Shown: positions 5,692 to 28,930 of the stretch, piece after piece
How positions within the stretch are numbered: the stretch's first letter is position 1
Layout: the number at the start of each line of letters is the position of its first letter
Virus record (IMG/VR): IMGVR_UViG_3300017763_000124
Location: 1 to 29,193 of that record
Reading direction: 5' to 3' (one strand)
Length of the DNA stretch: 29,193 nt
From: a virus
Made by a program: the position numbers and the translations under genes
The notes under the pieces: generated by a model
Databases searched by the model: none
What the model was told of the DNA's origin: nothing
Seen by the model: the letters and a program-made list of their open reading frames with translations, nothing else

Positions 5692-7137
5692 TTAATTGTT
5701 TAGCAATGGATTTGAAGGTAGGCTTGGTAACACTTTACCATCAAAACCTCCTATTTCTTTTGGAGAACCACCATAAATTTTATACACAAACTTTTTTACA
5801 TCTTCTGAAGTCATATCTTTTATAGAAGCTGTACCCATAGATGTGCTACCTAAAAGAAATTCAACATCACCACCTTCAATTTGTCTTAACTTTAAGCCTT
5901 TACCAGAGATATCTTTAACCATATTTTGAGATAGCTTGTTTATTAATTCAAACTTATCTTTAGTACCTTTGTTACCTATAACACTCACATCTTCTACGTT
6001 TATTTCCATAGGGAAATTTTTTATACTATCGAGTTGTTGTTTACTTATCTTAAGCTTTTCAGTTTGTTTTCTTTCTGTAGCCGTAAGTTCTTTAGGTTTT
6101 GGAGCTTTCTCTGTACGCTCTATAATTTCTTGTGTAAAGTAATTAGCACCTAAACCGTAGTCAACATAAGCTTCTACAAATTGTTTCTTTTGATCATCTG
6201 TTAACACATTTTCGTAATCCCAATCAGTACCTTTATTGTCAAGTGTATTGTTCCACATCGAAACAGCGCTGTTTCCAGGCATTTCTAAAAGCGATTCAGC
6301 ATTTGCCCTAAGCTCAGCACCTACAGGATTTCCAGGTTGTCTCAATAAATCAAAATTTGGAGTTCTATAATAAGTTATATCTCCATTTTTTTCTTCTCTT
6401 TTTTCAATTTCAGTAAGATAAGCAGGATTTATAACTCGTTTCTTTGGGTCAGTAGAACCTCCTGGGTCTGGCATTAAAGAAAATTCATGAGCAGCTTGAA
6501 AGTTAGGACCTTCATCAGGTATAATTCTTCCAAGAACATTTGCGCCAAGATCTCTATTTAAAAATTCTCTAACAGAGCTTTCAGTATGTACTTTACCATT
6601 TATATCAAAAGCAGCTTCACCGTCTACAAATGTTAAATTGTTAGCACCTGCTAATTGCCCAAGAAATATTTGAGCATTTTTTAAACCTTCAGGTGAAGAT
6701 CCTTTAGCGTCAAATCCTCCTGGTTTACCCACGTTAGCAACAGAACTAGTTAGTTCCTCTGCATTACTTAATAAGTTTTCACCTAGTGATTTAGCGGTAT
6801 AAGGCGAGGCTAATATTTTTGCTTGCTCTTGCTTTTCTTGTGCCGTGGCTGTGCCATTGTCTATTTTTTGCTGTATTATATCATACCGCTGTACCATAGG
6901 TTCCCAATCATCAGCGTTAAAGTTATCTCCACTACGCTTAGCAAATTCAGTTCTTAAATTTAAAACACCTTGCTCACGCTCTCTTATTAAACGTAAGTTT
7001 TCTTTTTCGTTAGCTTTAGCTTTTTCTCTAGCTCTTTTAGCCATAGCATCACCTACGCCTATAGAAGTCTTTATAAGATCTACATACGCTTGACCTGACT
7101 GTTTGTCGACAAATTGTTGTGGGTTTCTATAACTCAT
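5692..7137 (-). CDS. Putative internal virion/cargo protein, 481 aa
   Basis: I do not recognise a named family. The first ~70 residues are helical and rich in Lys, Arg, Glu and Ala, probably a coiled coil. The middle is mixed alpha/beta, and residues ~340-375 form a Lys/Glu/Thr-rich helical stretch. There is no signal peptide or obvious membrane segment. It sits 3 bases upstream of the giant virion protein and 12 bases after the 288-aa core-like protein, so all three are probably co-transcribed and act together as internal (ejected) proteins. The start ATG at 7137 is preceded by an A/T-only leader, as elsewhere in this genome. The structural role is inferred from position alone; a fibre-associated or assembly role cannot be excluded. 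Confidence 0.82.
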   Translation of the reverse strand: MSYRNPQQFVDKQSGQAYVDLIKTSIGVGDAMAKRAREKAKANEKENLRLIREREQGVLNLRTEFAKRSGDNFNADDWEPMVQRYDIIQQKIDNGTATAQEKQEQAKILASPYTAKSLGENLLSNAEELTSSVANVGKPGGFDAKGSSPEGLKNAQIFLGQLAGANNLTFVDGEAAFDINGKVHTESSVREFLNRDLGANVLGRIIPDEGPNFQAAHEFSLMPDPGGSTDPKKRVINPAYLTEIEKREEKNGDITYYRTPNFDLLRQPGNPVGAELRANAESLLEMPGNSAVSMWNNTLDNKGTDWDYENVLTDDQKKQFVEAYVDYGLGANYFTQEIIERTEKAPKPKELTATERKQTEKLKISKQQLDSIKNFPMEINVEDVSVIGNKGTKDKFELINKLSQNMVKDISGKGLKLRQIEGGDVEFLLGSTSMGTASIKDMTSEDVKKFVYKIYGGSPKEIGGFDGKVLPSLPSNPLLNN

Positions 7138-8021: not shown

Positions 8022-9602
8022 TTAATATGATGATTCTACGTATTCTGTTGACACGGCAAATAGTTCGTTAAATTCTCCAGGACTTGTACCACCGACTGTC
8101 ATTTTAACAATAGCAAAAAATCCTTTTATACCACTCATTGATTTACCAAATAAAATTTCACCGTTATTTTGTGGAGTTGCATTTATAATATTAGCAAAGT
8201 ATTTATCTTCTTTTCTTAAAAAATTATTTGAAAACAAATTGTTTTCTAAACCTTGCTGTGTTGTGGCTAGTGTATAACTACCTATGTTTTTACCTACATC
8301 TTCATTAGTAGTGAGCTCAGTAACAACCCAGTTTTTAGACCCTTCATAGTTTATAGTGTTAAAGTTTTTAACTACAGAAACATTAGGGTTAAATATAAAT
8401 GTTACATTTGCAGGTGTTGACAAATTATAAAACGTGCCTCTGTTATTGCTTTCTGAATAGTGTTTATATATTTTACCATCTTTAATAGAGTAAAAATCGT
8501 TTTTCAAACTACCAACAAAATCAGGACCGTATGTATAGAAGCTTGTCCAACCTCTAACACTTTCGTCGAATGATAAGGTTTTATAATCATCGACCTCTTG
8601 TGAAGGATCTAATCCTCTGAATTGACCTTCTTTTAATATACTTACTTCGTATTTTTTAGTATGTAAATCATAACCACCAACAACAGTACCATTACTGCTT
8701 ATAGATGATAATTCATCACGCCAAAAATCTGTCATGCCATATCTTGATATTTCTTCTATACCATCACGTGATAATCTAAGCACAGCGTTTCGTCTTCTGT
8801 CTGTAAAATATTTTCTATATCCATATATAGCAAAGCTTTCTGGATCCTTTGATATACCATACTTTCCACCGTAAGGAACTATTTGGCCAATAACTAGATT
8901 AGCTGTGCTAACAGCAGTACCTTGTCCTTCAGCTGAGTATATAGCGTCTTTATCTATAAGAGCTCTACTAACTTTGTCTTCTTGAAATATAGTTAGATTA
9001 GTATTTTCAGCATATAATCTTTGTATACTACCATTGGCAGGATCTAAAGATCTAGTTATGTCTTCAGCTACAGAAAATTGATTTGTATTATTAATACCTG
9101 TTCTAGAGTTGTATACACCAGAGTATATTAAAGAACTAGCTCGTGTCTCTCCTTGCTTAACATCATCTACAACATAAGCTTTAATACCAAAATCTACAGA
9201 TGTGTTATTATAACCACCACGTATTCTAGCTTCTTCTATATACCAATCATCATCATCAACACCTGGGTAACCATTAGGTATATTAGTAAAATCTTCTATT
9301 TGTCCAAATATTATTGTAACATTTCCTGACAAAACGGGTGATGGCGTCGGTGATACTTTAAATTCAGTACTACTTATTCTTTCTGTAATAAAACCTGTGT
9401 ATGTGCCGGAATTTGACAAAAGTATAGTTACACTTTGTCCGACGTTCATTTCTGTGTCAGGCAAGCTAGAAGTTATTGTTATTGTATCGCCGTTTTGCGT
9501 AACGGTTTCAGCAATTTGCCTACCCGGCACAACAGCTGTGATACTAGCTATCTTCTTTAACCAGAAAGAGTTATAATATTTTACTTCTATAGTAGCTGCC
9601 AT
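8022..9602 (-). CDS. Tail structural/stabilization-type protein, 526 aa
   Basis: This beta-rich protein has few Lys/Glu helices. Its central block (about residues 120-300) contains repeated aromatic and Asp/Asn-rich strands, including WYIEEARIRGGYNNTSVDFG, NSRTGINNTNQFSV and ITRSLDPANGSIQRLYAE. I recall this sequence type as recurrent in uncultured marine phage structural proteins, usually next to the large hub protein. The N-terminal ~110 residues form a separate beta domain with alternating Thr/Ile/Val. It follows the 1484-aa protein after a 33-base gap and probably forms part of the tail hub, plug or fibre base. A beta-propeller-like or P22 gp10-like tail stabilization role is possible by position, but I cannot show it from the sequence alone. 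Confidence 0.85.
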   Translation of the reverse strand: MAATIEVKYYNSFWLKKIASITAVVPGRQIAETVTQNGDTITITSSLPDTEMNVGQSVTILLSNSGTYTGFITERISSTEFKVSPTPSPVLSGNVTIIFGQIEDFTNIPNGYPGVDDDDWYIEEARIRGGYNNTSVDFGIKAYVVDDVKQGETRASSLIYSGVYNSRTGINNTNQFSVAEDITRSLDPANGSIQRLYAENTNLTIFQEDKVSRALIDKDAIYSAEGQGTAVSTANLVIGQIVPYGGKYGISKDPESFAIYGYRKYFTDRRRNAVLRLSRDGIEEISRYGMTDFWRDELSSISSNGTVVGGYDLHTKKYEVSILKEGQFRGLDPSQEVDDYKTLSFDESVRGWTSFYTYGPDFVGSLKNDFYSIKDGKIYKHYSESNNRGTFYNLSTPANVTFIFNPNVSVVKNFNTINYEGSKNWVVTELTTNEDVGKNIGSYTLATTQQGLENNLFSNNFLRKEDKYFANIINATPQNNGEILFGKSMSGIKGFFAIVKMTVGGTSPGEFNELFAVSTEYVESSY

Positions 9603-9635: not shown

Positions 9636-12600
9636 CTAAGGAAACAATTTGTAAAATCTAGGAGCTGCGTAGTTTAAACTACTACAAGTACCAACACCAC
9701 CACCACCTGATGGTGAACCTTCTATTATAGCTGCGTATGGTGCTCCTCCTGTTTCATTTTTTAATCCATCTATATTTAATTTGGGTGCAGCTGTAATGTC
9801 TGCTGTAGGTTGATTATAAAGTGCTGGATAAAATCTATTAGCTACTGGCGGTGTATAAACATTTACTAAATCCGATGCATTATAAAATTCTCTAATATAT
9901 TCAGGAAAAGGATTATCTGCATAAGTGGAATCGTTTGAAAGATCTTGAACTGAGCAAATGCTGCTTTGAGATATATAACCGTTACCTCCGTTATTGTAAA
10001 TACGGAATTGAAAATTATCTTGAGTTTGGCTTGTAGTTATGTAATGTAAATCTCTAAGCCTTGTTTGTATTACTGTATCAAATGTGCTCGCTCCACCATT
10101 AGCACATAGTGTAATTTTTTCAATTTTAATTAAAAAAGCATATTTACCCGGCATATTACCAGCAAAATATGTGTTCTCTTCTGGACTAGCCCCACTAGCG
10201 GCACTATCATAATACGAAGGATTTAATCTTATATAATCAATACCATTAACATCGCCATCAAGACCATTTATATCAGCCACTCTAGTCCAATCATTACTAG
10301 TAGGATTAGAAGCCGTAGTATGATACACACGCATAGTTATTATTGATTGTATTGTAGTTGCTTGTGGTGGTTGTTGGCACAATCCTGCAAAGTAAGTAAC
10401 TTTAGCTTCTTCAATACCAAAAACAAATTCACCTATAGACTGCGAATCACCTATTTTATAAGCATCTCTATTCTGACCTATAGGGTTTGGGGTGCAAGGT
10501 GTTGGGTTTGCAATTGCTAGAAAATTCCCGTTATTATCATAATTAGGTAAATTGCTATTACTTATAAGACCATCAGACATATAACAGCATATGTAATCAA
10601 AAGTTGAGGTGTTTCCCGAAGGACAATTGCTAGTTTTATCCGGGCTTGAACTAGTCCAGGCTTTATTAGCCCTGCTAGATACGTAAGAATCACTCTGTGG
10701 ATAACCCTTTATAACTGTAATATTTTGATCAATTAATAAACTGCCCGCGCCAGGGGTTGAACCATCAAGCGAAGCGTCTTCTAATCTTATAGTTATAGGA
10801 TATGAATTATTACCAGAAGTTAAACCTGCTGTTGTTAGTTTAAGCTCACCAGAAGTAGCATCAATATCAAAGTAACCCGCTTCATTGCCAGTTGGTAATA
10901 TTGTCCATAGTAAATCTAACTTTTGTGTAGTATCTATACTTGCCCCGTTAACAGAATCAGCTTGTGCTCCAAAGTTGTGTATAACTTGACCAACAATATA
11001 AGTATCATCATAAAAATAATAAGGATTTGGAGTTGCTATTGTAAAACTAGGATCGTTGTTTATTAAACTACCTGTAAAAGAAAGTGTTTGTGAACCCCAA
11101 GTACTACCACTTCCACCTTCGTTAAAAGTAATATTAAATGTAAATACATCTTGCGTAGAACTATCGTTAATATATTCGTAACCTACTGTATTTTGTATTC
11201 TATAGTCTCCGCCTGGTAGATGTATTAATTCAAAGTCATTTGTAACATTTCCTCTAGGACTTGTTACTACAAAATTACCGGGCGTTGTATTGATTATTGG
11301 AGATCCTAAACTATCTAACGGATAAAAATCTTGAGTTACAGCGGTGCCTATAGCATCTGTTTCTTCAAAAACAAACACAGGGTTTATAGCTACAGGACCG
11401 TCAAAACCAACAGCTACATCCCAATTTAAATCAGATATTAAACCAGCTTGAGTTGTTTCCCAATATATATCAAGAGCAGATACCACAGGTTCTGTTTCAA
11501 GTATAGTTAAGTTTTCTATATCTTGATAGTCTCCTTGTTGATCTTTTTCATTAAAAACACCAAACTGTTCATCTGTTTGACTTGAAGTTATAAATTCTGC
11601 AATAAAAGGATTTGACTCAGATTTAAAAAACCCATGATACGGGTTTGCTGGATCTGTTATTGGCACACCTGCAGTACCTTGCGTAACTGTATTAACATCA
11701 AAAAGATCAAACAAATCTTCTATAGTGTTTGTTGTAAAGTTTTTATTACCAGGATAATACTGAGCGTTACCAGTATTACTAAATACATTTGTTGTATTTT
11801 CTACCCTACCAAAAAGCCTAACACTACTTCTAAAAGTTTTATCTTGAGGCCCTACTTCTGATAAATCTCTAGGAACTTTATTTATGTTATCATTAATAAG
11901 AGTTATAAACGAAGTGCTTGGATTTACTGGATTGGCAGCGTCTGGCGGGACTGGGTTTTGGGCATCGTAAATTAACGGAATGTCTTTCATAGCTCCAGCA
12001 GAGTACACATTGTAATACTCTTGCTCGTTTTGTTTAACAACAATTTTATAAGAATACCAACCTAAAACATTTTCATTGTATGCAAATTTAATATCAGCTA
12101 TACTAGCGCCTAACGTAAGATCAGCTAAATACATATCACTAACTCTTCCATCTGTTGTTACTACATATGGATCTCCACCTATGCCTGTACCTGTGACACC
12201 TGTCACCTCAACGTAATCTATACTAGCACCGCGCATATAACTATTAGCCGTAGGTATCGATGTCCCAGCACCTGTAACGGTTGAAATTATAAAAGTATAA
12301 GTAGTATCAGTTATAACTGGGGTTGTTGATTTTTCAATATCAAAACCGTTTCCTATTTGAGTAGCGTATAAACCCGGAGCTTCGTCTCCTACACCACCTG
12401 TTATAGCGCTATTTACTAGCATTACTATAGAATTACCAAACCAATTTAAAACACCATTGGGCATATACGTTGGATCGGGTATACCTGAACCGGCTGGTTC
12501 GTCTTTTATATAAGGAGCATAAATAGTAGAACCTCTAGAGTTACTAGCACCAACAGTAGATTCACTTACTGGTGATAAAATAGTATCTGATTGTCTTCCA

Positions 12601-14090
12601 AATTTATCTGACAAAACAAAACCTACCTGATAATTTCTATTTTGTTTAATAGTATGATTAGGATATTCTATAAAATTAGTATACTGAGGATTTGCTATTT
12701 TTTTCTCTATATTTACAGTATAGTTTATTGTATCAGGCGGGGTATGCTTAGTTTGAAAGTTTCCATAAACAACTCTATTGCTAGTTATTTCTTGTGTCTT
12801 AGCTTTAACAGGTACCTTATCATAAACCCTAACGGTTTGATCTTGTGGTAATACACGTATGGGTTTTCTAGATTGATATGAATATGTATAAAAAGTATTA
12901 TCAGCAGAACTACTACTTATTTCATTTACAAAAACAGTATCAAGAACCTTTACAGAAGATTGGTCTGATTCTGAATATAATAAATCAACACTTAAAATTT
13001 TATAAGAAGAAGCTATATTGTTAGCTTTGTCTGGAAGAGGTATAATTAATTCTATATTATTAATATTATTTTCAAACCAATCCAATATAGTGCTATTAAA
13101 AGCGCCTTTTTCGTTTGAGTTTATAAAATAACCATTTTGTTTAGGCACATAGGCTATTTGAGTAAACGGAGAAAATATAGAATACTCGTTGTCTTCAAAT
13201 TTAAATCTATATCCAAATCTAACAAACTTATCTTGCAAGTAATCAGGATCACCAGGCCAAGAAGTAATACTAGACTGATCTGTCATTGTAGATGCTAGAA
13301 AATATATTATATCTGTTTGTGATATAGGTGTAGAAGGTGCATTGTCTATCGTGATAGTTGTTTCTGTAGTAGTTGTAACAGCACTAATAACCTTTATATA
13401 TTCTGTAGGAAGTATTGTATTAACACCAGCTGTAGTAGTACCAAGCAATGTCATACCAGCGGTTATGTTGCTATTAGGAGCTGTTAAAAACTCAGTAGTA
13501 GTTGTTACACCTACAACACTTTCAATCTCCTCTTTTATAAGTGATATAGATTGATAAGGATTATATTTAGCTACAGATATATGATTTTCTTTGTAGTAAT
13601 GATTAGCATCATTCGCGGCTAACTCTACGTTTATTTTTCTAGGTTGGTTTCTATTGTCTGTAAAGAATAATAAATCTTCTAAAAGATTTACAGCTATAAT
13701 AGGGCTTTGAGTAGAGAAGTTTAAAAAACTACCACTTACAAGCGTTTGATATTGAGTGGTGTTGTTTACGTTTAAAAACCTAATAGAACAGCTAGCGTCA
13801 ACAGGCGCTTCTCCATCACCAGTCCAGTCTGTAAGAAAGGTATATATGCGATCTTTAGAACTATCCATTAAATAACCAATGATATACATTTTACCATAAA
13901 TGCCATCAGCTATTGTAGTAGAGGCTATAAGCTCATTACCTTTAATATTTTCCAATGTACCAACACTATCTTCTTCAGATTTACCTACAAGTATATTCTG
14001 AGCAGTTCTGTATTCACCATTAGGCAACAACCTGTCGTCCAGGTCTTGATTCATTTTTGCCTTTAGAAAATTATTTTTAGCTTCAGCCAT
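9636..14090 (-). CDS. Large tail hub/tail tip protein with cadherin-like segment, 1484 aa
   Basis: The N-terminus has the pattern KMNQDLDDRLLPNGEYRTAQN followed by GTLENIKGNE. I recognise this as the start of a large structural protein recurrent in marine and flavobacterial podovirus-like phages, where it forms the tail hub or muzzle region. The rest is nearly all beta, rich in Thr, Asn, Ser, Gly and aromatic residues. Around residues 1070-1104 the pattern YFDIDATSGELKL...YPITIRLEDA matches the cadherin-repeat signature, suggesting an adhesive beta-sandwich. Downstream, a Cys-containing region (from ~1155, with ICCY) and a Gly-rich segment near 1460 could belong to a receptor-binding tip. The gene follows the connector genes with a 5-base gap. 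Hub versus fibre assignment is uncertain; the structural role is likely. Confidence 0.88.
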   Translation of the reverse strand: MAEAKNNFLKAKMNQDLDDRLLPNGEYRTAQNILVGKSEEDSVGTLENIKGNELIASTTIADGIYGKMYIIGYLMDSSKDRIYTFLTDWTGDGEAPVDASCSIRFLNVNNTTQYQTLVSGSFLNFSTQSPIIAVNLLEDLLFFTDNRNQPRKINVELAANDANHYYKENHISVAKYNPYQSISLIKEEIESVVGVTTTTEFLTAPNSNITAGMTLLGTTTAGVNTILPTEYIKVISAVTTTTETTITIDNAPSTPISQTDIIYFLASTMTDQSSITSWPGDPDYLQDKFVRFGYRFKFEDNEYSIFSPFTQIAYVPKQNGYFINSNEKGAFNSTILDWFENNINNIELIIPLPDKANNIASSYKILSVDLLYSESDQSSVKVLDTVFVNEISSSSADNTFYTYSYQSRKPIRVLPQDQTVRVYDKVPVKAKTQEITSNRVVYGNFQTKHTPPDTINYTVNIEKKIANPQYTNFIEYPNHTIKQNRNYQVGFVLSDKFGRQSDTILSPVSESTVGASNSRGSTIYAPYIKDEPAGSGIPDPTYMPNGVLNWFGNSIVMLVNSAITGGVGDEAPGLYATQIGNGFDIEKSTTPVITDTTYTFIISTVTGAGTSIPTANSYMRGASIDYVEVTGVTGTGIGGDPYVVTTDGRVSDMYLADLTLGASIADIKFAYNENVLGWYSYKIVVKQNEQEYYNVYSAGAMKDIPLIYDAQNPVPPDAANPVNPSTSFITLINDNINKVPRDLSEVGPQDKTFRSSVRLFGRVENTTNVFSNTGNAQYYPGNKNFTTNTIEDLFDLFDVNTVTQGTAGVPITDPANPYHGFFKSESNPFIAEFITSSQTDEQFGVFNEKDQQGDYQDIENLTILETEPVVSALDIYWETTQAGLISDLNWDVAVGFDGPVAINPVFVFEETDAIGTAVTQDFYPLDSLGSPIINTTPGNFVVTSPRGNVTNDFELIHLPGGDYRIQNTVGYEYINDSSTQDVFTFNITFNEGGSGSTWGSQTLSFTGSLINNDPSFTIATPNPYYFYDDTYIVGQVIHNFGAQADSVNGASIDTTQKLDLLWTILPTGNEAGYFDIDATSGELKLTTAGLTSGNNSYPITIRLEDASLDGSTPGAGSLLIDQNITVIKGYPQSDSYVSSRANKAWTSSSPDKTSNCPSGNTSTFDYICCYMSDGLISNSNLPNYDNNGNFLAIANPTPCTPNPIGQNRDAYKIGDSQSIGEFVFGIEEAKVTYFAGLCQQPPQATTIQSIITMRVYHTTASNPTSNDWTRVADINGLDGDVNGIDYIRLNPSYYDSAASGASPEENTYFAGNMPGKYAFLIKIEKITLCANGGASTFDTVIQTRLRDLHYITTSQTQDNFQFRIYNNGGNGYISQSSICSVQDLSNDSTYADNPFPEYIREFYNASDLVNVYTPPVANRFYPALYNQPTADITAAPKLNIDGLKNETGGAPYAAIIEGSPSGGGGVGTCSSLNYAAPRFYKLFP

Positions 14091-22328: not shown

Positions 22329-24533
22329 CTATTTTATTATTTTTGAAATATTACCTTGGTTATCAAATTTTTTAAAACCTAAAGAAACAATATTTTTTTT
22401 ACCTATATTTATAGGCGTATATCTGTTTTTATTACACGCCATTATTGCTAAACCAGAACTAATAGAAGCATCGTGCTTTGTTCTATTGTTTATATTAAAC
22501 TTAGCCCAGTCTTCTAATGTTTCTTGAAAATACATATTACCGTATGCAGTTTCTTTTAATCCGACAAAATCTTCTATATAAGATTCTATAGCAGCAGCGT
22601 GTGCTTGTTTAATGTCTTCTGACGAGTTAGGTATTCCACCTATTTCTCTTTCCGCTACAGACAGTTTTAATTTATCTGGTCTGTTCATTGAAAAAGCTCT
22701 GTAACCTCTACGTTTTAAATAGTATAAAAGTCTAGGTTTGTTATTTTCTGCTAATATCGGCATGCTATAAAAATGCAAAGCCATTAATACGTCTTCAAAA
22801 AATATTTCAGCCGTGGGTGGTCTTGATATATATTCCAAGAAAAACATATTAGCAGGTACATTTTCCATAGAAAATTTTGTAAGCCCATGAAGAGCTCCGT
22901 TAGATCCTCTGTTATCTACCGTGCCTGATATATCATAAGAGTCACAACCAAAAGCACCGCAATGTTCATTACCAGGAAATTTAACTCCATTTTTTATTAT
23001 TACACGATTTTGTAATTCTGCAGGCGGTACCCAAGAAACTAGAAACCTACCATTTTTATTTGGCATAAAATTAACAATAGTATCTTTAATACCACCTTGC
23101 CAAACAAAGTTACCTCTAGTTACTAACTTAGAGTTATCAGACTCATCATTATAATCTATCTGCTCGTATATTTTAGTTAGATTAAACAAAGACTGTTTTG
23201 TCTCATCTCTAAAAGCGTGTTGCTCTGTACGAGGAAACTGCCTGTAATATTCGTTTAAACTGTCTTGATCACCTTTTAGACCATCAACTTCGTTTTCCCA
23301 GTGGTTTATAACACCTACTTCAATTTGAAGCCCGTCTGAACCTTCAACTGGTTTTGTCGGCGTATCAAAGACAGGGTGTCCATAAGTATCAATGAATCCT
23401 TCGTAGTTCCACTCCATAGGTATGAACAAAGAATATAATCCTGAGCTAGTCTGTCCGTTGCGGTTTCTTCGTGTGACATCTGATGCATAGTATAATTTCT
23501 TAAAATTCTCACCGCCTTTATCTAAAGCGTTTGATGTTGAGCCCATCATACATTTGCCTACAACTCTACTACCTAATCGCAGTGTGGTTTTTGTAACCCT
23601 CCAGTTGTTCAATATGTTATCAGGTCTTTCCCATTTACCAGATTCATCGTGTACTAACAGTTTTAGTTTTTCGCCATCATAGCTGTTGTCACCTGTATTT
23701 TTCCAGTCAATAGTAGTATCAAGTCCTACAACTTCTTCTGCGGTTTCACCTTGATCAAGCTTACGTCTGGTAAGCTTAGACGCGGGGACTCTATAAGCAA
23801 GTTCCGTTTTTGGTCGGTCCATACCGTCTTGTATGGGTCGAAAGAAGAACGGATAGTTGATAGATATCGGTACGACTTTGTCGGTAAACATTTTTTTAGC
23901 ATCAGCCCCTGACTTTGATAATATGCCAAATCTTGCATCGCTTGATATCGTAGCGAGGTTGACTGTTTCACCCGATGCCATGAATGAAAAACCAGAGCGT
24001 CTGTTTTTAAGGTAGCACATACCATAACATCTTTGGTCTGCTTTACAAGCTTCCCAGAATATAAAGAATAATCTGTTTGACTCCCTAAAGTCTGCTGCCC
24101 CAACGTCAATTTTAGACCACTGCAAGTACATGTAGTGAGTGCCAGTAATATAAGTAGCAATGTCTTTATTGTTGAACCAATAACCTTCGTCACGCCGTTT
24201 AAACTCTTCATCAATATACCCATACCATCTTTCTTTGAAGTGCTCTGGGTATTTATTCCACTCAAATACACTTTTTATTTTATTTAATTCTTTAGGATAT
24301 TCTTCTCTAGACCATTTGTACTTATCCTTATTTAGTTTATCTTTAAAAGGTGGTAACGCTATTTTAAGGTTTTGTATTTCATATACTTCACCTATTTGAC
24401 CAGTCTTACTTATAACAACCACATCATGTTCTTTGTTATAACCGTACTCCCACTTTTTGCTTTTGTTATTTCTTTTAAGCACGTGGGGTTTTATGTGATC
24501 TGTAAGTACAGTAAATAAAATTTGTTTGTACAT
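22329..24533 (-). CDS. terL: Terminase large subunit, 734 aa
   Basis: This is the ATPase-nuclease packaging motor that acts at the portal. The ATPase half shows a deviant Walker A-like segment KNRRSGFS at residues 176-183 (instead of GxxxxGKT/S), a Walker B segment KLLVHDE at 291-297 (D296, catalytic E297), and a coupling motif GSTSN at ~331-335. The nuclease half starts near 525 with GCDSYDISGT (D531/D534 as likely metal ligands) and continues through a conserved stretch RPPTAEIFFEDVLMALHFY at ~571-589. The long N-terminal extension (~150 residues before Walker A) and total length exceed the usual 450-600 aa. It starts with TAATG overlap with the preceding gene, which suggests translational coupling. 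The identity is secure; packaging type cannot be told from one sequence. Confidence 0.93.
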   Translation of the reverse strand: MYKQILFTVLTDHIKPHVLKRNNKSKKWEYGYNKEHDVVVISKTGQIGEVYEIQNLKIALPPFKDKLNKDKYKWSREEYPKELNKIKSVFEWNKYPEHFKERWYGYIDEEFKRRDEGYWFNNKDIATYITGTHYMYLQWSKIDVGAADFRESNRLFFIFWEACKADQRCYGMCYLKNRRSGFSFMASGETVNLATISSDARFGILSKSGADAKKMFTDKVVPISINYPFFFRPIQDGMDRPKTELAYRVPASKLTRRKLDQGETAEEVVGLDTTIDWKNTGDNSYDGEKLKLLVHDESGKWERPDNILNNWRVTKTTLRLGSRVVGKCMMGSTSNALDKGGENFKKLYYASDVTRRNRNGQTSSGLYSLFIPMEWNYEGFIDTYGHPVFDTPTKPVEGSDGLQIEVGVINHWENEVDGLKGDQDSLNEYYRQFPRTEQHAFRDETKQSLFNLTKIYEQIDYNDESDNSKLVTRGNFVWQGGIKDTIVNFMPNKNGRFLVSWVPPAELQNRVIIKNGVKFPGNEHCGAFGCDSYDISGTVDNRGSNGALHGLTKFSMENVPANMFFLEYISRPPTAEIFFEDVLMALHFYSMPILAENNKPRLLYYLKRRGYRAFSMNRPDKLKLSVAEREIGGIPNSSEDIKQAHAAAIESYIEDFVGLKETAYGNMYFQETLEDWAKFNINNRTKHDASISSGLAIMACNKNRYTPINIGKKNIVSLGFKKFDNQGNISKIIK

Positions 24534-25868: not shown

Positions 25869-25882
25869 AAGTTATTTAACTT
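25869..25882. promoter_or_regulatory. Perfect 14-bp palindrome in the gap before the coiled-coil gene
   Basis: AAGTTATTTAACTT is a perfect inverted repeat (6-bp arms, 2-base centre). It sits in the 25-base gap between the 3-TM holin-like gene stop and the next start, partly overlapping that stop codon. It could be an operator half-site pair or a weak RNA hairpin. In AT-rich DNA such a match may also be chance, so confidence is low. Confidence 0.25.
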
Positions 25883-26280
25883 TACTTATTATTACTTATT
25901 TTTTTACCTTTTTCCCACGTACGACCCACAAAGTAAGCGCCATACACAGTTATTAATAGCGACTGGAATATAGGTATATAATCCTCTGCTATTGAAAACT
26001 CTCCTATGTTACCATCAAAAAATGCTAATACAGAAAATATAAAGGTAAGGTATATAAGAACCATTGGCCTTATATTCTTAGACAAGAAGGAATCGGACTT
26101 CATATCCGACTCCCATCTTGCTGTTACCTGATCTTGAGCGTCTTTATCCGCTTGCTCTAGCAGCTCTTCAACTTTTTGTTTAGCTGCAAGTCTTTCTTCA
26201 TCAGTAGTTACTAGATCATCTATTACTTGACCTATATCTTTGATGAGACCTCCAGTTATAAATTGAAGAATTTTTTTCAT
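25882..26280 (-). CDS. Holin-like 3-TM family protein, 132 aa
   Basis: The N-terminal ~60 residues are a charged amphipathic helix (DLVTTDEERLAAKQKVEELL, then QVTARWESDM). The segment KSDSFLSKNIRPMVLIYLTF leads into a transmembrane helix at ~71-88, and a second one lies at ~102-119. This order matches the gene-transfer-agent/phage holin family GTA_holin_3TM, whose typical pattern is TTDEER...K then RWxxDMxSDxxLSKxIRP. Such proteins form inner-membrane lesions that release the endolysin. It sits downstream of the M15-type peptidase gene in the same lysis/accessory cassette. Family assignment is from recalled motif; function as holin is inferred. Confidence 0.82.
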   Translation of the reverse strand: MKKILQFITGGLIKDIGQVIDDLVTTDEERLAAKQKVEELLEQADKDAQDQVTARWESDMKSDSFLSKNIRPMVLIYLTFIFSVLAFFDGNIGEFSIAEDYIPIFQSLLITVYGAYFVGRTWEKGKKISNNK

Positions 26281-26685
26281 TTATTTTTTATCAATTGAAG
26301 TTGTAATATATTTTTTCCCATCTAATTCTTTAGAAGGAATAAGACCTGTGTAATTTGGATTAGAGGTTGTAGGATCTTGCATATCTCTAAGATCTGAACC
26401 AGCTTGTTTGATAATTTCACCTTCAACATCTCTAACTTGTGGATTACCAATCCCATAACCGTGATCTCCAAACGTGATAGGTTTTGAGGTTACTTTTCTT
26501 ACTGTCCCTGTTACTCCAGCAGCGTCAGCTTTAAAGTCTTTTGGTATTGGATTACCAAACTCATCTAAGTTTGTTTTTTTAGCTACAGAATCCATATGAA
26601 CTGCTGATCCTTCTGCCATATATCCTACAGCTTTGTTTGTTGTTTGACCTTTCATAAAAGTTACAGGTCCTTTTTTATATGCCAT
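26281..26685 (-). CDS. Small basic protein of unknown function, 134 aa
   Basis: I do not recognise it. It is Lys/Gly/Thr/Asp-rich with few hydrophobic stretches and no membrane segment, so probably largely disordered. The N-terminus reads AYKKGPVTFMKG and the C-terminus DGKKYITTSIDKK. It ends directly before the 3-TM holin-like gene with no gap and follows the zincin gene, so it is part of the lysis/accessory operon. A minor virion or host-interaction role is equally possible. Confidence 0.72.
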   Translation of the reverse strand: MAYKKGPVTFMKGQTTNKAVGYMAEGSAVHMDSVAKKTNLDEFGNPIPKDFKADAAGVTGTVRKVTSKPITFGDHGYGIGNPQVRDVEGEIIKQAGSDLRDMQDPTTSNPNYTGLIPSKELDGKKYITTSIDKK

Positions 26686-26695
26686 TTTATTTGTT

Positions 26696-27004
26696 TTATT
26701 TTGTTTTATTATAAGCTTCTTTTTCCCATGGTAGGTTTTTAGCTCCTTCTTTAATACTTGAGCGGGGTATTACTTTACCTTTCCAATATACGTTTTTATT
26801 ATCATAATCAAGATCACCTCTACGCATTTGGTCTATATGTATCATTTCGTGGTTTATAACTTCTTGTATTTTACCACACGGTACATCTTTGTTTATAATA
26901 ATAGTACCGTTGTTATTAGCTTTTCCTAAAACACCGTCCTCCATGTCTACGTGATAAACAGGAGTATTGTCTATTGAAAACGGAGGTGTTAATTTAAAAG
27001 CCAT
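26696..27004 (-). CDS. Small HExxH zincin-type metallopeptidase candidate, 102 aa
   Basis: HEMIH at residues 52-56 inside VINHEMIHIDQMRRGD fits the HExxH zinc-binding helix (H52, H56 metal ligands, E53 catalytic base). The preceding strand region TIIINKDVPCGKIQEV and a downstream acidic residue in LPWEKEAY (E96) give a plausible third ligand in the usual position of small zincins. At 102 aa it would be a minimal metallopeptidase core. It lies in the lysis/accessory cassette, 2 bases after the 51-aa Cys-x-Cys gene and 10 bases before the 134-aa gene. The substrate is unknown; peptidoglycan peptide, host or capsid-assembly protein are all possible. No signal peptide. Confidence 0.75.
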   Translation of the reverse strand: MAFKLTPPFSIDNTPVYHVDMEDGVLGKANNNGTIIINKDVPCGKIQEVINHEMIHIDQMRRGDLDYDNKNVYWKGKVIPRSSIKEGAKNLPWEKEAYNKTK

Positions 27005-27425: not shown

Positions 27426-27679
27426 TTTACTTTGTCAGCCCAATAGGCAGCAGACATTTTACCTTTTTTAATGTTTTTAGCGTGACGAGCTTTAAAACTA
27501 GCTCTACGTGCTTTAGACTTAGCATCTGTTTTTTTACCAGCTGTGCTAACACCTTGTTGACCAAACCTTATAATTTTTTCTTTACCTGCAGAACAAGCTT
27601 TAACTATATGTGATTTAGTTTTATGATCTGGCGTACGCCGAGGTTTATTACACTTAAGTGTTTTCTTATCAGTTGCCAT
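27419..27679 (-). CDS. Small Lys/Arg-rich protein ending in YWADKVKW, 86 aa
   Basis: Highly basic (Lys and Arg about one third of residues), with SHIVKACSAGKEKIIRFGQQ and a C-terminal KGKMSAAYWADKVKW. I recognise the C-terminal pattern as typical of a family of small uncharacterised phage proteins (possibly DUF5872-like; not verified). It could bind nucleic acid. It starts 11 bases inside the M15 peptidase gene end and its stop overlaps the next gene, consistent with tight operon coupling. No membrane segment. Confidence 0.78.
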   Translation of the reverse strand: MATDKKTLKCNKPRRTPDHKTKSHIVKACSAGKEKIIRFGQQGVSTAGKKTDAKSKARRASFKARHAKNIKKGKMSAAYWADKVKW

Positions 27680-28031
27680 ATGTCCAAATTACATTAGGTG
27701 ATTTATCATCGTCTATATCAGCGTGAATAAAAGTATCACCAATACCTATACGGTCTACACCGTGTTCTAATAATTCTCTAATCAAAGAAAAACGTTCTTT
27801 ACTTTTGCTGCAAGCTATATCTACAGCAAGTCCTTTTAAATGAGATGACTCACTTGTTCCACCCACGGCTTCGTTATGTGAAGGTGTTCGATAACCAGAT
27901 GTTATACGCAAAGGCATGCCTAGCTCTTCTCTTATGCTATCTAATATACTTATAAGCTTTTTACTCATCATCTGCCCGCTACCTTGCACATCAGGCGAAT
28001 CGAACTCTTCGTAAGTAAAATACTTAAACAT
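27669..28031 (-). CDS. M15-family peptidoglycan peptidase (endolysin-type), 120 aa
   Basis: The zinc D-Ala-D-Ala-carboxypeptidase-like (Peptidase_M15_3) signature is clear. SGYRTPSHNEAVGG at residues 45-58 is followed by SSHLKGLAVDI at 62-72, giving H64 and D71 as metal ligands. The downstream FIHADID at 101-107 (H103) provides the third ligand. It cleaves peptidoglycan cross-links, acting after holin opens the inner membrane. At 120 aa it is a single catalytic domain without a cell-wall-binding extension, common in phages of Gram-negative hosts. It starts in a TAATG overlap with the class II holin-like gene, supporting a holin-endolysin pair. No signal peptide, so it needs a holin to reach its substrate. 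Confidence 0.92.
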   Translation of the reverse strand: MFKYFTYEEFDSPDVQGSGQMMSKKLISILDSIREELGMPLRITSGYRTPSHNEAVGGTSESSHLKGLAVDIACSKSKERFSLIRELLEHGVDRIGIGDTFIHADIDDDKSPNVIWTYGN

Positions 28032-28393: not shown

Positions 28394-28930
28394 TTATTTT
28401 ATTATTCGTTTTATTTTTGGAATTTCTTGAGCTTTAGATGAAGTCTTTGCAGATGTTGATGTTGATACTCTACTTTTATCAACTAATGTTTTCCTCATCT
28501 TAGGTTTCATCATTTCATTAAACCTTTGCTCGCGTTTTGCCACTCTTACGCTATCAGCATAATTTTCTGCGCCTAGCGAATATTTTTGACCTAGCACCGT
28601 TCTATCATGAGAGACGCCTTCATGAAACTCTACTGGTGACACCATTTTAGTAGCAGCGTCATAACCCATTTGCTCTACAACACTATCGTCTAAAGCTCTA
28701 AGCCCTGCGCCTTCATTGCCTTCTGGAATATCTTTCATAAACATAGGTGGCTGTGGCATAGACATTTGTCTTTGAAAAGGTGTTCCATATACTTGATTAC
28801 CTACATTTTGAGCAGTTTGGTTAAACACAGGTTTAGCTGTACCCATTTGATTTGCTGGCATAGGGGGTTGCGGTGTCATCTCCATACCAGTTAATGGGTC
28901 TATCATTTTTAAAGGATTTTTATAGTCCAT
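28394..28930 (-). CDS. Pro/Met/Gln-rich protein of unknown function, 178 aa
   Basis: Residues ~1-70 are Pro/Met/Gln/Asn-rich (PQPPMPANQMG, QMSMPQPPMFMKD) and appear disordered. The middle (about 70-140) is a mixed charged region with EQMGYDAATKMVSPVEFHEG. The C-terminus is Ser/Thr/Lys-rich (VSTSTSAKTSSKAQEI) and basic, ending KIKRIIK. Neither a catalytic motif nor a membrane segment is visible. It heads the string of small genes and is read one base after the partial right-edge gene, so it belongs to the same transcript. A minor virion or DNA-associated protein is possible, unproven. Confidence 0.74.
   Translation of the reverse strand: MDYKNPLKMIDPLTGMEMTPQPPMPANQMGTAKPVFNQTAQNVGNQVYGTPFQRQMSMPQPPMFMKDIPEGNEGAGLRALDDSVVEQMGYDAATKMVSPVEFHEGVSHDRTVLGQKYSLGAENYADSVRVAKREQRFNEMMKPKMRKTLVDKSRVSTSTSAKTSSKAQEIPKIKRIIK

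Follow-up and report, generated by a model that had tools for sequence, protein, structure and literature searches.

A 102-residue probable zincin of flavobacterial-type podoviruses shares a clade-specific N-terminal peptide with other phage proteins

What a very small protein with a zinc-peptidase signature might do beside the lysis genes of a phage is the question raised by this locus, which lies in a virus record of 29,193 bases (hereafter the window, meaning that whole stretch at its full length). A sequence-only reading had described a 102-aa open reading frame carrying HEMIH and LPWEKEAY as a minimal zincin, encoded near a separate M15-type peptidase, and had proposed for it a second cleavage of the cell envelope, the processing of lysis proteins or an anti-host function. 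The reading frame, which opens with ATG, was indeed found among the window ORFs, with the two motifs at residues 52-56 and 91-98 (Table 1).

The source virus is a flavobacterial-type podovirus, and its terminase large subunit (TerL) is 63% identical to that of the uncultured podovirus ctfjg026, 44% to those of Flavobacterium elemo phages and 38% to that of Cellulophaga phi38:1. On one strand, the genes run from the M15 endolysin through an 86-aa phrog_7595 protein (DUF5754-like, with a score below the cut-off), an 87-aa protein and the 51-aa GLGD/CGC protein (a weak match to phrog_32048) to the zincin, and then continue with the 134-aa accessory protein, the holin, two small proteins, the GroES-like protein, a 90-aa protein, TerL and the portal gene. 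Because it shares its strand with adjoining genes for lysis, chaperonin, terminase and portal, the zincin would probably be expressed late. The GroES-like gene precedes TerL, a GroEL-like ORF was noted by eye upstream in another locus (L049:942-2483), and phages of the zincin clade may thus carry their own chaperonin pair. Elsewhere in the window, the adjacent ORFs 8022-9602 and 9636-14090 match different parts of the 1474-residue PHROG 14478 (best stretches 927-1258 and 1-181), as if one virion protein had been split or much enlarged.

Table 1. Features of the window that bear on the zincin gene (minus strand throughout).
Feature	Coordinates	Strand	Evidence or remark
Minimal zincin, 102 aa, probable gluzincin-type metallopeptidase, whole gene	26696..27004	-	relative searches, model, alignment
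HEMIH, residues 52-56: presumed zinc ligands H52 and H56, presumed general base E53	26837..26851	-	276/276 relatives; predicted helix 43-62
PWEKEAY, residues 92-98; E94 (26723-26725) likely third zinc ligand	26711..26731	-	275/275 rows; predicted helix 92-101
N-terminal tag MAFKLTPPFS, residues 1-10	26975..27004	-	strict pattern and controls
Accessory protein MAYKKGPVTF..., 134 aa, loose tag form	26281..26685	-	outside the strict pattern; homologues with strict form and SPx repeats
Accessory protein MDYKNPLKM..., 178 aa, loose tag form	28394..28930	-	by eye
GLGDD...CGC protein, 51 aa	27006..27161	-	where found (68/85 loci), as a rule directly 5' of the zincin
M15 peptidase, endolysin	27669..28031	-	Pfam M15_3 5.8e-19; PHROG endolysin 5e-29
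Holin	25882..26280	-	GTA_holin_3TM 2.7e-05; PHROG holin 7.1e-27; present in 84/85 loci
GroES-like co-chaperonin, 201 aa	24750..25355	-	PHROG GroES 1.6e-20
Terminase large subunit (TerL)	22329..24533	-	PHROG 4.6e-161

Conservation of the presumed catalytic residues was complete in the relatives collected. The first search returned 390 viral stretches, and HExxH was kept in the best 80 of 80, at 72-97% identity. The window protein was then aligned with 277 relatives, many of them near-identical and two truncated; a fragment (L091) was left out of every count of relatives, be it of zincin loci, alignment rows or tags. H52, E53 and H56 were found in 276 of the 276 relatives that reach them, in all families, most of these relatives having come from pattern or similarity searches in which the catalytic motifs themselves took part; the fairest sample is that of the TerL-anchored loci (18 of 18), where a wholly degraded copy would still escape. 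Homologues lacking HExxH, which the sequence-only reading had named as the case against it, did not occur. E94 and A97 were present in all 275 rows reaching them and Q59 in all rows but 2. The third zinc ligand is likely E94 and not E96, because E94 is invariant in the alignment while E96 is replaced in four relatives (by M, D, K and N). The earlier suggestion of a third ligand within LPWEKEAY was thus right as to an invariant acidic residue, with the choice now falling on the glutamate of PWE, E96 being variable. Relative to the window gene, dN/dS had a median of 0.09 and a range of 0.04-1.02 over 40 same-length pairs with finite dS, the top value of 1.02 presumably coming from a shifted pair. 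Together with the conserved motif, this takes the gene well beyond a chance occurrence.

Structure prediction pointed in the same direction. In the best of five AlphaFold models made from 55 aligned sequences (pLDDT 84.5; the other four, 64.6-68.4), the window protein is predicted to form strands, a helix (43-62) that carries HExxH, strands between 65 and 80 and a helix (92-101) that carries E94, so that the pair of putative metal-binding helices expected of a zincin is predicted. Foldseek found no zincin among the best 50 of 139 PDB matches of this model. In a comparison with 336 chains, which can judge only the families contained in that set, the single match with Z of at least 2 was a weak alignment to proabylysin 4jiu (Z 2.1, 58 residues, 3.8 Å), and a BFVD search gave 8 matches at E <= 0.001, two of them named SprT-like. 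A sister family found on T4-like contigs, linked to the window family by profile comparison (98%), was modelled at pLDDT 92.3. The top match of that model was the Aquifex protein 1oz9 (Z 11.1, 109 residues, 2.5 Å), which, like two further matches (rows 7 and 9), we take to be a YbeY-type metal hydrolase, not a peptidase. It also matched ERAP1 6mgq (Z 10.5, 117 residues, 3.4 Å), 6mdw ('Mechanism of protease dependent DPC repair', presumably Spartan; Z 8.0, 102 residues, 3.5 Å), IrrE 3dte (Z 7.5, 94 residues, 3.1 Å), Wss1 5xbv (Z 7.4, 107 residues, 3.4 Å) and selecase 4qhj (Z 7.0, 89 residues, 3.0 Å). Since these matches span zincins and YbeY-type hydrolases, the predicted general fold would be zincin-like without being that of a peptidase by fold alone, and the peptidase reading is drawn from the HExxH plus Glu pattern. 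Compared with the modelled sister (about 140 aa), the window form has no counterpart of the opening helix (14-31), and its closing helix is shorter. Taken together, invariant residues, predicted helices and zincin matches of the sister model support a minimal zincin distinct from the M15 peptidase, and we regard the 102-aa protein as very probably an abbreviated, active gluzincin-type zincin.

At the level of named families, the significant profile matches of the window protein were phrog_16532 (2.4e-10) and phrog_10499 (1.6e-08). Membership in SprT-like (PF10263) was rejected, the window protein being unlisted and its relatives L081 and L082 (the latter of the sister family) scoring 12.1 and 22.4 bits against a Pfam cut-off of 25.6. 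The same holds for Peptidase_M78/IrrE (PF06114), where the window protein was again unlisted and L081 reached 13.9 bits against a cut-off of 22, PF06114 being annotated on some distant relatives, and for the putative metallopeptidase family DUF6782 (18.5 bits against a cut-off of 27). NCBIfam held no family for the window protein, and a sequence search of the PDB with it gave no meaningful match.

The distribution of the gene was assessed from TerL. Among 160 loci fetched, the 48 with at least 6 kb upstream were used and the 112 shorter ones left out; the zincin was found in 18 of the 19 loci with a window-type TerL (six-frame count, including an overlapping gene in L351) and in none of the 29 with a TerL of the ctfjg026 type, which form a sister clade. 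In the one exception (L394), about 9 kb upstream are without a zincin, and two ORFs of more than 1000 residues fill most of the stretch. A bacterial origin was rejected, as L087, a metagenome-assembled genome (MAG) titled Sphingobacteriales that carries the gene, was the only match among 395 genomes sampled from its own phylum. With the gene in 18 of 19 clade loci and, among those genomes, in L087 alone, the zincin has the distribution of a phage gene that is near-core in its own clade. The MAGs that contain three further phage-like contigs with a zincin (L086, L089 and L091) bear the titles Euryarchaeota, Aliivibrio and Woesearchaeota; contamination is the probable cause. More distant relatives occur in phages of Methylophilales, Prochlorococcus, Synechococcus, Sinorhizobium and Caulobacter, as well as of Xanthomonas (XacN1), Ochrobactrum (OC), Stenotrophomonas (DLP_6) and Roseobacter (CRP-9); a search for relatives seeded with the XacN1 protein gave no matches. 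The combination stressed by the sequence-only reading, a zincin near but separate from M15, is seen in the window; across the zincin loci there is no fixed tie, a match to the M15 of the window being present in 29 of 85 (within flanks that are often short), at times with only 32% identity. Four of five larger records contain an M15, in one case at a distance of some 37 kb from the zincin gene. Two enlarged forms were observed in the upstream slices: a 393-aa ORF (L386_5220_6401, coordinates of a 9-kb slice) with a zincin domain carrying HEEHH and some 250-290 residues containing SPY, and an ORF (L412_3720_4187, slice coordinates) in which an N-terminal extension holding SPI and SPL stands before MGFKMKGSPY.

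A lead to the place of action comes from the N-terminus. By eye, other proteins encoded nearby begin in a similar way to the zincin, which starts with MAFKLTPPF, or in L049 with MAFKMKPSPF. This resemblance was put into a strict pattern, ^M[AGPSN][FY].{0,10}[SPN]P[FYLMIVA], written after inspection that included some proteins of a later TerL-anchored set; a narrower pattern, noted before those later loci were fetched, is the only version fixed in advance. In 105 loci of the zincin clade (104 with the zincin, L394 being the one without; redundancy cut at 60%), the strict tag was carried by 43 of 370 non-redundant late-region proteins other than the zincin, against 0.3 by shuffling (maximum 2 in 200 shufflings). 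None of the control proteins fitted the strict tag; these comprised 224 from the sister clade without the zincin, 93 and 457 (together 550) from T4-like loci and 123 from six isolates without the zincin. Among 56 families new to the later set (no BLAST match in the first), four had the strict tag, or five counting any member, against 0.05 expected, and one had the narrower pattern, against 0.000. Over all loci, the narrower pattern was found in 10 of 1560 clade proteins and in 0 of 431, 0 of 819 and 0 of 1335 proteins of three control sets.

Without removal of redundancy, the strict tag was carried by 159 of the 1560 clade proteins, comprising 74 zincins and 85 others. The 85 fall into 22 BLAST clusters, with 49 of them in one family, while 25 of the 99 zincins in their own cluster lie outside the strict pattern and 74 fit it. 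At least one tagged protein other than the zincin was present in 67 of the 105 loci, and one such protein has a DUF6321 domain above the cut-off. Tagged proteins were mostly basic: pI was at least 9 in 70 of the 85, against 572 of 1376 untagged proteins (20 of 22 against 60 of 162 when counted by cluster). In the window itself, the zincin is the only one of 24 called proteins with the strict tag, and a 481-aa protein (5692-7137) that starts MSYRNPQQF is loosely tag-like by eye and outside the strict pattern. F3, K4 and P7 of the zincin tag are invariant in 22 rows. At the codon level, the tagged starts in the window differ in part, so that recent copying of DNA is not an obvious cause of the shared tag. 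The T4-like homologues of the zincin are without it and lie mostly away from late genes as annotated. The tag is therefore a clade-specific N-terminal peptide common to the zincin and many mostly basic proteins; as tag and zincin coincide in a single clade, their link may reflect one evolutionary event.

We tentatively prefer, at somewhat less than an even chance, the view that the zincin is tagged virion cargo, serving as a maturation protease or as an ejected one. The protein would act as a phage zinc endopeptidase, with H52, H56 and E94 as zinc ligands, E53 as the residue that activates a water molecule and the strand ahead of the active helix aligning the substrate chain; its fold class suggests that it cuts proteins, not peptidoglycan. 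The first ten or so residues might work like the capsid-targeting sequence of T4, bringing tagged proteins into the prohead, where the protease could then act, for example on co-packaged proteins, or from which it could be expelled into the next host together with the DNA. An ejected protease would fit the surroundings of the zincin in T4-like phages, where the neighbouring genes are small and mostly unannotated. More doubtful is the wider proposal that the flavobacterial podovirus clade has a capsid-targeting peptide of its own, M[A/G/P][F/Y]K...[S/P/N]P-hydrophobic, which routes a rotating and mostly basic cargo that includes the zincin, and that the zincin either processes its co-passengers or is fired into the next host.

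Zincins of the IrrE/ImmA and Spartan types cut specific proteins, and the window protein might in the same way stay in the infected cell and remove one host regulator or defence protein. Such a host-directed role, which we judge rather unlikely, is in line with the position of T4-like family members among small, mostly unannotated genes and with their annotation as T4-GC 70/PF06114, WLM protease or ImmA/IrrE; host targets were also favoured for SprT-like copies in jumbo phages, in the part of that work available (PMC7824862). However, a near-core gene (18 of 19 loci) with late-type neighbours and a clade-wide tag is unlike an optional early takeover gene.

The neighbourhood first suggests lysis, and in the corresponding scenario the zincin would leave through the holin lesion together with the M15 endolysin and cut tethers between outer membrane and wall, a spanin-like job. 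This is unlikely in our estimate, and possible without being general. In the window, the zincin gene stands between the endolysin and holin genes. In the Melnitz-type T4-like branch (80 loci fetched), a GH108 enzyme (35 loci) or a GH19-like one (5) lies at most four genes upstream in 40 of the 48 loci with at least four upstream genes, and Hydrolase_2 at most seven genes downstream in 34 of 54; the GH19-like match, to an enzyme with a peptidoglycan-binding domain, is below the Pfam cut-off. This association represents one or a few events, because the Melnitz-type contigs are closely related. Across these loci (L094-L173), the slot beside the zincin was seen to hold either the GH108 or the GH19-like enzyme while the zincin is constant. 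By contrast, an annotated cell-wall hydrolase was near the zincin in 2 of 13 isolate regions (Melnitz-3 and DLP_6) and absent as an annotation from the other 11, which is weak evidence as most neighbours there are unannotated or hypothetical; the OC region has a rIII-like gene. A third branch (L182-L261) has no obvious lysis neighbours by eye, inspection by eye reveals neither a signal peptide nor a membrane segment in the zincin, its tag is common to many other proteins, and the 29 sister-type loci are without it, yet ctfjg026 and the elemo phages carry an M15 or carboxypeptidase gene. The envelope-cleavage role put forward in the sequence-only reading accordingly retains circumstantial backing, from the same-strand run with lysis genes and the T4-like branch beside endolysins, and loses its generality with the isolate regions and the widely shared tag.

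It is still less probable that the zincin works in the prohead as the maturation protease of the clade, removing the shared tags or cutting proteins with SPx repeats in place of a serine prohead protease. In its favour, tag and zincin are confined to the same clade, and SPx occurs 193 times in 221 representatives of accessory proteins, against 51.6 (sd 7.2) by shuffling, while in 109 representatives of hand-picked core clusters it occurs 8 times, against 9.8 expected. A PHROG scan of ten ORFs at E 0.001 brought up no prohead protease (three of the ten were matchless, one of these lying between the portal and capsid genes), and such a role was suggested for the conserved zincin of group 1 jumbo phages in the accessible text of PMC7824862. 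Against it, zincin-less relatives are also without an annotated prohead protease in the portal-capsid interval, where many genes are hypothetical, so that none may be needed, and SPx is mildly raised in zincin-negative loci too (108 against 79.1 expected; 94 against 41.8 in zincin-positive loci). With enrichment only moderately different between the two types of loci, SPx repeats are not put forward as obligate zincin substrates. As for position, SPx was found within the N-terminal 35 residues of 93 of 593 proteins, against 26.4 expected, and within the C-terminal 35 residues of 29, for which no shuffling was run. SPx repeats stand in tandem in homologues of the 134-aa accessory protein (for example L055:4727-5287 and L051:4735-5604), two instances being MGHESPAKMGHESPAK and AMEMSPYKM.

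Last, a catalytically dead zincin fold, or another metal hydrolase, serving as a binding module is very improbable: the protein is very small, lacks the N-terminal helix of the sister family and has a relative whose model best matches a YbeY-type protein, but its presumed ligands and general base are invariant in 275-276 relatives and the HExxH plus Glu pattern is that of gluzincins.

Returning to the tagged-cargo reading, which we tentatively prefer, part of the background is already known: phage zincins of the broad type have been annotated as T4-GC 70/PF06114, WLM or ImmA/IrrE, or stand as PHROGs of unknown function. As far as we have seen, the abbreviated podoviral form, its near-core status, the E94 ligand candidate and the shared clade-specific tag are new; within a partial coverage of the literature, to which the tag itself did not belong, no paper was titled on a zincin family in flavobacterial phages. 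In marine phages, small zincins turn up repeatedly under three annotation names, none with a tested function that we came across; the present clade adds a near-core zincin of 102 residues and a tangible clue to where it acts.

Among known systems, the minigluzincins (proabylysin 4jiu, selecase 4qhj) are likewise proteins of about 100 residues with a HExxH helix, and in them a glutamate is the third zinc ligand; they differ in being archaeal and have no significant sequence match to the window protein. Wss1 and SprT were earlier likened to minigluzincins, according to the available portion of PMC4559962. With the SprT-like, WLM and ImmA/IrrE-like zincins of phages (T4-GC 70, phrog_16532, phrog_10499), the window protein shares the HExxH..Q and WE..A motifs, whereas it bears the tag, is without the N-terminal helix and has a short last helix. 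For jumbo-phage zincins, host-directed and maturation roles are both discussed in the part of PMC7824862 that was accessible.

As regards virion cargo, crassviruses, which are also viruses of Bacteroidota, store phage proteins in capsid and tail; that cargo is large (60-277 kDa), and no zincin or such tag is mentioned in the sections available (PMC10172136). A parallel to the proposed role is T4, in which ten N-terminal residues are enough for an internal protein to enter the head; the targeting peptide is cut off by gp21, and many of these basic internal proteins are ejected (PMC9026906). Both systems have a short N-terminal peptide on unrelated, mostly basic proteins with a protease among them; they differ in the sequence of the tag, in that gp21 is a serine protease and in that packaging and processing are, for the present clade, proposals. 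Should the tag indeed direct proteins to the capsid, sequence alone would predict the cargo of an entire group of Bacteroidota-type phages, most of them uncultured, the substrates of the zincin could be sought through virions, and the clade would provide a second, independent case of the internal-protein strategy of T4.
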